Positions 17,433-20,343 of a DNA stretch of 64,000 nucleotides are shown here, in pieces (the first letter of the stretch is position 1; every line of letters begins with the position of its first letter). The notes beneath the pieces were generated by a model. The model saw only the letters and a program-made list of their open reading frames with translations. It was not told the origin of the DNA and made no database searches. The translations under genes and the position numbers were made by a program. Origin of the DNA: Bacillus sp. es.034 (lineage in GTDB: Bacteria; Bacillota; Bacilli; Bacillales; Bacillaceae_B); NCBI RefSeq assembly GCF_002563655.1, contig NZ_PDIY01000001.1, forward strand, positions 3,570,001 to 3,634,000, in the 5' to 3' direction.

Positions 17433-18389
17433 TTAACTCCACTTTTCACGAATGTTTTCACCTTGTGAAATCATGCGCTCGATGAGATCTTTAACCGACG
17501 GGATGTCATGGATCAACCCCATCACCTGTCCTGCCCATGCAAAGCCTTCGTCTACTTCACCATCGTAGATATATCGTTTATTTGCCTCGCCGCTTATGTA
17601 TGATTTCAATCCTTCATATCCCGGATTCGATGTTTCAGCAGCCAGGATTTGATTTGTCCAGGTATTTGATATCGCTCTGGCCGGGGCCCCTAAAGATCGT
17701 TTAATGACTACTGTACCACTCTCATCCCCTTCAATCAAGGCACGTTTATACACGTCTGAAGCGTGGACGCACTCTTTTGTCGCTATGAATCTTGTCCCCA
17801 TCTCGACTCCTTCTGCGCCGAAGCTGAGGGCTGCCATCAAACCACGGCCGTCCCCAATACCTCCCGAGGCAATGACAGGGATGGATACAGCATCCACCAC
17901 ACGTGGAATCAAGACGAATGTCCCGATGTCATCCTTACCCAAATGTCCTCCCCCTTCTTGTCCAACGACCATGACGGCATCCGCACCGAGCTCCTCAGCC
18001 TTTTGGGCCTGTCTTTTTGATGCGACCAATACAAGCTTCACCATATCCTCACCTTCAATTTGTTGAAACAGGGGAGTCGGATTCCCTCCTGTTACGGAGA
18101 TGACCGGCACCTTTTCTTCAATGGCAATATCTACAAACCCGCTGAATGGGCGTCCATGTTGACCGATGGCAAAGTTCACTCCAAACGGTTGATCTGTTAA
18201 TGACCTTACCTTTTTGATTTCTTTACGAAGCTCTTCGGGGTCATCGAGTGACATGGCGGTGATTTGGCCAAGGCCGCCTGCATTCGACACTGCCGCAGCC
18301 AGTTCTGCATATGCCAGGTGGGCAAGCCCCCCTTGTATGATTGGATATTGAATGTTCAATAATTCTGTAACCCTCGTTTTCCACTTCAT
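17433..18389 (-). CDS. Nitronate monooxygenase / FabK-like flavoprotein
   Basis: 318-residue FMN-dependent TIM-barrel protein. The N-terminus [32 protein letters not shown] and the motifs [19 protein letters not shown] and [11 protein letters not shown] are typical of the 2-nitropropane dioxygenase/enoyl-ACP reductase II superfamily. Which reaction it performs cannot be told; stand-alone Bacillus members are usually called nitronate monooxygenase and there are no fatty-acid genes here to favour FabK. Start ATG at 18389 has GGAGGG 6 bp upstream. It is not in the corresponding B. subtilis gene order as I recall it. Confidence 0.85.
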
Positions 18390-18520
18390 TTGAATCCCTC
18401 CATTCATTCATTTATTCTCGATGGAGGTGGGAAAGTCCTTTTCTTTGGCGTGGTGTATATTCATAAGAATTAAGGTGAGTCTTAGATGAGAGGGCAATGG
18501 GTGTTATAGTGAGTTGTGTA
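18390..18520. other. Non-coding gap before the cloverleaf
   Basis: No gene, terminator or clear promoter seen; together with 18521-18873 this gap separates the monooxygenase gene from speA. Confidence 0.5.
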
Positions 18521-18664
18521 GACTTTTGGCTCATTCGGGTGAAACCGATGTTTCACCCGCCTTTCAGCTTTGCTGAAAGGTCGTCCTGTGTGAGAGTGAC
18601 CGCCAGACCAAGCGAGCTTGGTCTGGCGGTCACTCTCACACAGGACGGAAATGAGCCAAAAATC
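18521..18664. repeat. Perfect DNA cloverleaf (three hairpins closed by an outer stem)
   Basis: Outer 12-bp stem TTTTGGCTCATT (18524-18535) pairs exactly with 18650-18661, extended by GA/TC after one mismatch. Inside are three abutting perfect hairpins: 18536-18559 (10-bp arms CGGGTGAAAC, loop CGAT), 18560-18580 (9-bp arms CCTTTCAGC, loop TTT) and 18582-18647 (32-bp arms, 2-nt centre GA at 18614-18615). Only T18581 and GA 18648-18649 are unpaired between stems. It is not coding and has no T run, so it is not a normal terminator. It might be a mobile palindromic repeat, a structured RNA or a DNA-processing site. No flanking transposase is seen. Confidence 0.9.
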
Positions 18665-18873
18665 AGGCAGTGTCATATCTTTTGTTTGTGCTATGAAAAA
18701 AATACATCTTCATGGGCGTATGTCACTATGCAAAGATTTTCTTAAGTGCTATAATTCTTTTGTTTGTTGAAAATATCGTAAGAAAATGTATGAAATTGTG
18801 GATTGAATCCTATATAATGATATCTTTAGTATGCATATTTTTTTATGAAGAATATAAAGAGGTGTTGAATGAA
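18665..18873 (+). promoter_or_regulatory. speA upstream region
   Basis: About 210 bp between the cloverleaf and speA. TATAAT occurs at 18750-18755 and again near 18816, but neither has a good -35 at 16-18 bp. The frame upstream of speA is open by chance and lacks a ribosome site. Confidence 0.35.
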
Positions 18874-20343
18874 TTGTCTCAAAATGAAACGCCGTTGTTT
18901 ACCGGCTTAATTGAACATAGTAAAAAAAATCCCGTCCAGTTTCATATTCCCGGTCATAAGAAAGGTGCAGGGATGGATCCTGCCTTTAAGGAATTCATAG
19001 GGGATAATGCGCTTTCCATTGATTTGATTAATATCGGTCCTTTAGATGACCTCCATCAACCTAAAGGAATGATCAAGGAAGCGCAGGATTTGGCTGCCGA
19101 GGCATTCGGTGCCGATCATACTTTCTTCTCTGTTCAGGGGACGAGCGGAGCGATCATGACGATGGTCATGAGTGTGTGCGGACCTGGAGACAAGATCATT
19201 GTTCCAAGAAACGTGCATAAATCCGTTATGTCTGCGATTGTTTTCTCAGGAGCCACACCTATCTTTATCCATCCAGATATTGATGAAGATCTTGGGATCT
19301 CACACGGTATCACGACAGACGCCGTTGCAAAGGCTTTGGAACAAAACCCCGATGCCAAAGGTGTACTGGTCATCAATCCGACTTATTTCGGGATTTCCGC
19401 AGACCTAAAGAAAATCGTGGAAATTGCCCACTCGTATCATGTTCCGGTGCTGGTCGATGAAGCTCATGGGGTTCATATACACTTCCATGATGAACTTCCC
19501 CTGTCAGCCATGCAGGCAGGTGCTGATTTAGCGGCTACGAGTGTTCATAAGCTCGGGGGATCCATGACTCAAAGCTCAGTCCTTAATATGAAAGAAGGAC
19601 TTGTCTCTGCTAAGCGTGTGCAGACCATCTTAAGCATGCTTACGACGACTTCCACGTCATACTTACTACTAGCATCTCTTGATGTTGCAAGAAAACGACT
19701 TGCTACGGAAGGACGGGAACTCATCACCAAAACGATCGAACTCTCACAGAGTATGAGAAAGCAAATCAATGAGATTGACGGCTTATACTGTGTAGGGGAA
19801 GAAATTCTTGGAACGAAAGCCACCTATGCGTATGATCCGACTAAGCTGATTATATCCGTGAAGGATCTTGGAATCAGCGGGTTCGATGCGGAAAAGTGGT
19901 TAAGAGAAGCTCATAATATCGAGGTTGAAATGTCCGACCTGTATAATATCCTGTGCATCATCACACCTGGTGATACTGAATATGAAGGAAACCAATTGGT
20001 CACTGCTTTAAAAGAACTGGTTACAAGCCTTAAGAAACAAGGCGAGATGACCCCGGTTAAAGTTATGCTCCCTGATATTCCTGTTCTATCTATTACACCG
20101 AGGGACGCTTTTTATGCTGATACGGAAGTCATTCCGATTGATGATTCCGTGGGGAGGACCATCGCTGAGTTCATCATGGTCTACCCGCCCGGAATTCCCA
20201 TATTCATTCCAGGGGAGATCATCACTCAGGAAAACATCCATTACATCAAAACCAATATAGAAGCAGGCCTTCCAGTACAAGGGCCTGAAGACTATGATTT
20301 ACGACATTTAAGAGTCATCAAAGAGCATCGGGCCATTCGATGA
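18874..20343 (+). CDS. speA: Arginine decarboxylase (PLP-dependent, Orn/Lys/Arg family)
   Basis: Decarboxylates arginine to agmatine, the first step of spermidine synthesis in Bacillus; lysine decarboxylase activity cannot be excluded from sequence. The protein starts MSQNETPLFTGL and is 489 residues. PLP-binding elements are clear: SVQGTSGAI (near 86), NPTYFG (168), VDEAHGVH (194-201) and SVHKLGGS with the Schiff-base Lys at 226. Start TTG at 18874 was chosen by alignment to the SpeA N-terminus and by AGAGGTG 9 bp upstream; the frame stays open to 18712 but without support. Followed by a strong terminator and the convergent SR1-type RNA. Confidence 0.93.
   Translation: MSQNETPLFTGLIEHSKKNPVQFHIPGHKKGAGMDPAFKEFIGDNALSIDLINIGPLDDLHQPKGMIKEAQDLAAEAFGADHTFFSVQGTSGAIMTMVMSVCGPGDKIIVPRNVHKSVMSAIVFSGATPIFIHPDIDEDLGISHGITTDAVAKALEQNPDAKGVLVINPTYFGISADLKKIVEIAHSYHVPVLVDEAHGVHIHFHDELPLSAMQAGADLAATSVHKLGGSMTQSSVLNMKEGLVSAKRVQTILSMLTTTSTSYLLLASLDVARKRLATEGRELITKTIELSQSMRKQINEIDGLYCVGEEILGTKATYAYDPTKLIISVKDLGISGFDAEKWLREAHNIEVEMSDLYNILCIITPGDTEYEGNQLVTALKELVTSLKKQGEMTPVKVMLPDIPVLSITPRDAFYADTEVIPIDDSVGRTIAEFIMVYPPGIPIFIPGEIITQENIHYIKTNIEAGLPVQGPEDYDLRHLRVIKEHRAIR

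Follow-up and report, generated by a model that had tools for sequence, protein, structure and literature searches.

A cloverleaf-forming DNA upstream of speA in Bacillus sp. es.034 is probably an old copy of a MITE-like element whose variable arm may be kept palindromic by template switching

The intergenic DNA ahead of the speA-like gene of Bacillus sp. es.034 holds a three-armed cloverleaf of nearly perfect pairing. It lies in a stretch of 64,000 nucleotides that was analysed as a whole and is termed the window. We consider it probable that this cloverleaf represents an old and now fixed insertion of a non-autonomous, MITE-like mobile DNA, that it is built on a four-way core, and that its long third arm is kept palindromic by template switching. 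The core would be a four-way junction in which an outer stem meets three arms, two of them short and conserved in sequence, the third long and free in sequence. This view draws on the numerous relatives of the element in other genomes, on filled and empty orthologous sites and on the way in which the stems have changed during evolution.

The structure of the window copy, read on the forward strand, agrees base for base with what had been described from the sequence alone. The outer stem is an inverted repeat of GACTTTTGGCTCATT (18521-18535; family consensus GATTTTTGGCTCATT) and AATGAGCCAAAAATC (18650-18664), i.e., 15 nt with one mismatch and 12 contiguous pairs. Arm 1 (18536-18559) is the hairpin CGGGTGAAAC-CGAT-GTTTCACCCG, in which 18536-18545 and 18550-18559 form 10 perfect bp; the family motif is GxGxGAAAC-N4-GTTTCxCxC. 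Arm 2 (18560-18580), CCTTTCAGC-TTT-GCTGAAAGG, has 9 perfect bp between 18560-18568 and 18572-18580; of all parts of the element it is the best conserved between genera (TTTCAGC/GCTGAAA). Arm 3 (18582-18647) is a hypervariable, perfect palindrome of 32 bp (18582-18613 with 18616-18647) and a 2-nt loop; its sequence is locus-specific, its pairing conserved. The three bases said to be unpaired between the stems are indeed T18581 and GA18648-18649. The DNA folding energy of -74.1 kcal/mol is far below that of shuffled sequences (-22.3 +/- 2.9; z = -17.7; 0/200), and the same holds when the cloverleaf is folded as RNA (z = -16.3). A terminator-like T run after the stem is absent, as stated before, and this rules out an intrinsic terminator. 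Arm 1 also contains GTGAAAC and GTTTCAC, which are parS half-sites in reversed order; this is probably a coincidence.

Mobility is most evident in Pseudalkalibacillus macyae DSM 16346. BLAST finds at least 40 copies in this genome; 146 terminal-repeat ends, versus 0 for a control pattern, correspond to about 70 copies. The full element has 195 bp, with GGCTATGTTA terminal repeats around the cloverleaf. The terminal inverted repeats read GGCTATGTTA...TAACATAGCC; the ends are also given as GGCTATGTTA...TGTTGATTT. Sizes range from about 106 to 195 bp. Shorter versions recur, chiefly one of 106 bp which consists of the outer stem and arm 1 only; therefore, arms 2 and 3 are dispensable for transposition. 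Perfect 8-bp target duplications border 20 of 31 distinct insertions; flanks compared over exactly 8 bp have a mean identity of 0.89, mismatched pairs one of 0.43. The copies are intergenic, between genes of every orientation. The family accordingly displays the properties by which a MITE is recognized: it is short, non-coding, multi-copy and intergenic, has terminal inverted repeats and a target duplication of fixed length, and is present or absent at orthologous sites. Clear terminal repeats were not found in copies from the source genus, that of the window included. In another genome (G140; L263, L266-L269) near-identical cloverleaf copies have different terminal repeats (CTATATAAGTTGAA), which suggests that the cloverleaf core can move with ends of different kinds.

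The speA locus itself provides the site comparison. The element is flanked by a divergent FabK/nitronate monooxygenase-like gene (17433-18407, reverse strand) and by the speA-like Orn/Lys/Arg decarboxylase gene (18868-20343, forward strand). At 13 of 30 speA loci fetched, the element or its remains are found at the same place, and 17 are empty. The window insertion is common to 12 related genomes, some copies having decayed, and is missing from others. When filled and empty sites are compared (L172 versus L173 and L175), the difference consists of the element and a TAAAAxxA duplication at its edges, which was read by eye only. Judged by these comparisons, the window copy was inserted upstream of speA long ago and has become fixed. 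The -10 region of the speA promoter, AAGTGCTATAAT (18744-18755, forward strand), is located downstream of the element and is present at empty sites, too. A second promoter-like sequence on the right flank, TTTTGTTTGTGCTATGA, is missing there and probably came with the insertion as a part of the inserted DNA; the extended -10-like TTTTGTTTGTGCTATGAAAA (18680-18699, forward strand) on this flank, likewise missing from empty sites, is a weak candidate which emerged from the comparison of filled and empty sites and was missed by a promoter scan. At one speA locus the whole element is inverted (L171). Another (L162, genome G031) is rearranged, with a second 3' half of the outer stem after arm 1 and a partial loss of arm 2.

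Five copies are present in the source genome, and arm 3 is missing from one of them. The copy between tig and clpX (L005, C1:2248199-2248339) is present in relatives with a different arm 3 (L047, L071, L085, L095); the remaining copies adjoin an ABC-F gene, pxpB and a cation-efflux gene. All five look old, and we infer their mobility from the relatives. By BLAST 27 of 36 congeneric genomes carry the element, and a covariance model built from element copies again returns 27 of 36. Across the order, the model detects the element in 63 of 399 genomes, which represent 16 of 135 genera; at most 8 scored candidates were counted per genome, and copy numbers from this search are lower bounds. Among named genomes, a pattern scan gives matches in Rossellomorea, Pseudalkalibacillus/Alkalihalobacillus, Peribacillus and several Bacillus sp.; the plasmid and phage collections searched contain no matching element. 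The sequence-only reading had held that a single-copy element devoid of covarying homologues would be neither mobile nor RNA. The element is multi-copy and has covarying homologues, and this objection falls. One copy (L034:1234-1412) adjoins a lysine riboswitch.

Certain positions have been kept for a long time. In one genus (g62) a single copy is positioned upstream of sufC in each of 8 genomes with a match (L237-L244), in the same orientation; arm-3 mismatches common to several species are seen in these copies. In two genera of another family the cloverleaf is upstream of nuoA and is followed by the nuoA promoter (L246, L247, L250-L253). GTGTCGAC / GTCGACAC border these copies; each genus has its own version of the outer stem, yet the two sides of the stem match. 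Such persistence near housekeeping genes could reflect retained harmless insertions or a role at the DNA level.

The stems are conserved to very different degrees. Rates are given as mean differences among eight intact speA-locus orthologues, in which the fourfold sites of speA differ by 0.426. The p-distance of the outer stem is 0.018; arm 1 has 0.071 in the stem and 0.39 in the loop, arm 2 0.042 and 0.26, respectively. Arm 3 has 0.29 on each side, which is an upper bound, the distance of one orthologue (L160) being inflated by a one-base register shift. Sequence identity amounts to 84% within the element, against 52% and 61% in its flanks. Relative to the fourfold sites of speA, divergence is thus 6 to 24 times lower in the conserved stems, but not in loops and flanks. 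As we reason, template switching alone cannot slow stem divergence below neutral, and the conserved stems therefore need selection. We infer from the sequences that the outer stem and arms 1 and 2 are under purifying selection on their sequence; they probably serve as a recognition site for a protein.

The same low divergence might be read differently, namely that the outer stem and arms 1 and 2 are a host module, a cruciform or operator for a conserved Bacillales protein near housekeeping promoters, with mobility as an incidental or ancestral trait. In line with this proposal, copies upstream of sufC (8 genomes), nuoA (two genera), clpX and speA have been kept over evolutionary spans of at least a genus. 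The proposal is at odds with the amplification in P. macyae, where copies have target duplications and reside between genes of all orientations, and with a distribution in which most genomes of the order, as well as 9 of 36 congeners, have no copy. We consider it unlikely.

Arm 3 differs between loci and species, and its pairing is maintained via two-sided changes, symmetric indels and loop flips. In the eight orthologues 97.2% is paired with a covariation score of 0.208 (0.074 when shuffled); in 57 copies the values are 97.4% and 0.446 versus 0.102 (0/500 shuffles). Changes on both sides affect 17 structure pairs of the orthologues, 14 of these in arm 3, and 30 of 31 arm-3 pairs in the 57 copies. 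In both sets covariation is strong. Individual events can be discerned: a symmetric one-base deletion on both sides of arm 3 (L159 versus L160), a reversed loop, GAGC/GCTC (L159 versus L161), a flip of all of arm 3 in P. macyae (L109), and inversion of the whole element at the same locus (L018-L020 versus L004, L015, L016, L021, L023 and L024). Long palindromes are expected to suffer deletion, and arm 3 has been lost by deletion at short repeats (L105, L107), also in a copy of the source genome (L004 versus L016). Arm 3 is thus an old structure that diverges at a roughly neutral rate, and yet its two sides pair. The earlier choice between recent origin and strong selection on the fold left out a third possibility, homogenization by template switching.

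Covariation of this strength, together with the RNA folding energy and an orientation toward nuoA and sufC that is fixed in the distant genera examined, would traditionally argue for a structured RNA, a cis-regulatory leader or a small RNA with a fold preserved by compensatory mutation. The departures from pairing tell otherwise. Functional RNA helices accept G-U far more readily than A-C. In arm 3, G.T and A.C departures number 11 and 8 (1051 pairs, P. macyae left out); in all helices of other genera they number 55 and 49, with a similar balance in most single groups. tRNAs from the same loci, a small control of 8 tRNAs, have 10 G.T versus 0 A.C in 172 pairs. These counts include pairs from related copies, which are not independent, and the one-sided arm-3 changes scored pairwise among orthologues (G.T 23, A.C 9) are less symmetric than the others. 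Since G.T about equals A.C in several independent groups, as opposed to 10:0 in tRNA, the pairing appears to be kept at the level of DNA, not by selection on RNA. Further, transitions account for 103 of 294 two-sided arm-3 changes (35%), near the chance expectation of one-third, i.e., there is no transition excess. The promoters of speA, nuoA and suf are all on the downstream side of the element, which therefore would not be in those mRNAs. Both orientations exist at one locus, and Rfam returned no match at gathering score, only sub-threshold matches of microRNA hairpins to arm 3. Despite the strong covariation, the structured RNA considered in the sequence-only reading is disfavoured by these strand-symmetric departures, downstream promoters and dual orientations, and we judge it quite improbable.

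Template switching accommodates these features of arm 3. Intra- or inter-strand switching at replication, known as quasipalindrome correction, would copy one half of arm 3 onto the other, flip loops or the whole element and so keep the halves identical. Template switching between the arms of inverted repeats yields homogenization and spacer inversion (PMC8604942; PMC8794818). It appears to be the simplest cause of arm-3 pairing, for which selection on an RNA fold would be unnecessary. The narrow length of arm 3 (about 60-64 nt) and its persistence over a whole genus suggest that some structural selection operates as well.

As the staggered 8-bp duplications indicate, the mobilizer was probably a cut-and-paste transposase of the DDE type. 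Because of this, one part of the earlier mobile-element claim, the REP/REPIN form, finds no support; the other part, a non-autonomous element, stands with the multiple copies, terminal repeats and duplications of P. macyae and with the empty sites. A short, palindromic, intergenic and multi-copy repeat does resemble single-strand hairpin elements of the REP/REPIN or IS200/IS605 type, which a Y1 (HUH) transposase would move, but Y1 transposases are not known to make staggered 8-bp target duplications. Size and three-arm core are also unlike REPs of 20-40 bp (PMC3733652), palindromes that go with a GTAG/CGTC tag and a RAYT gene; the CGTC at the foot of arm 3 in the window is not common to other loci. 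We regard this reading as very improbable. A search with ISL3 and IS1182 family models found no transposase with matching ends: ISL3 is absent from P. macyae and ISL3 loci elsewhere are without MITE ends, and IS1182 is represented only by a remnant in one genome with ends that do not match. The source genome has two near-identical ISL3-family insertion sequences (L157 and L158; C1:431571 and 595051) with ends unlike those of the MITE. Finally, long perfect palindromes are in general rare and error-prone to assemble, yet an assembly artefact, a worry voiced earlier, or a recent chance palindrome is hardly conceivable since many independent assemblies agree on site and structure and have different arm-3 sequences.

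Returning to the preferred reading of a MITE-like element with template switching in arm 3, a wider scheme can be envisaged. A conserved Bacillales protein may recognize the four-way core as extruded hairpins or a cruciform; the core might spread as a mobile element and be co-opted upstream of housekeeping promoters, with the long arm as a sequence-free spacer of fixed length which built-in template switching keeps palindromic. Taken jointly, these propositions are tentative and rather doubtful. Whether a DNA-binding protein acts at the conserved stems upstream of the suf, nuo, clpX and speA promoters is a question that can be put to the test. Beyond this, the family shows the evolution of a perfect palindrome in bacteria many times over, in natural copies that include orthologues whose divergence is known. 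With these it can be measured how often, and by which rules, template switching corrects an arm, loops flip and palindromes are lost. They also contain a warning: strong covariation is usually taken as proof of a functional RNA, but it can come from DNA copying alone, and the ratio of G.T to A.C departures separates RNA selection from DNA copying.

In the searchable literature, which excludes most subscription journals, no published description of the element was found, and a search of papers for sequence strings returned nothing. Its closest likeness is to bacterial MITEs such as QMITE2, Chunjie, ERIC and RUP (review PMC10969869). It shares with them shortness, lack of coding capacity, intergenic location, multiple copies, terminal inverted repeats, target duplications, stem-loop folding and size variants by internal deletion. 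It differs from them in a four-way-junction core common to several genera, in one arm of free sequence that is kept palindromic, and in having no known parent IS. The Bacillus cereus group has the repeats bcr1-bcr18 (PMC3446304), which are likewise MITE-like, intergenic, of similar size and from Bacillaceae. Bcr1 is given as 167 bp in PMC2267715, and the title of Okstad 2004, cited therein, calls it specific to the B. cereus group. By description, the 8-bp duplications, cloverleaf core and wide host range set our element apart from bcr1. Efa-1, Sta-1 and Bhal-1 (74 bp) are families of repeated stem-loops in Firmicutes, in some of which two hairpins stand side by side; as characterized in PMC2267715, they are not known to form a three-armed cloverleaf or to have a variable arm. 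Symmetric two-sided changes and inversion of the loop (spacer) in hairpins are familiar from quasipalindrome correction and template-switch mutation (PMC8794818; PMC8604942). The published cases are scattered events in rRNA, microRNA or yeast genes, whereas here a whole dispersed family appears to be concerned, flips of entire elements included. New are the conserved four-way core, the palindromic arm of free sequence and the width of distribution.
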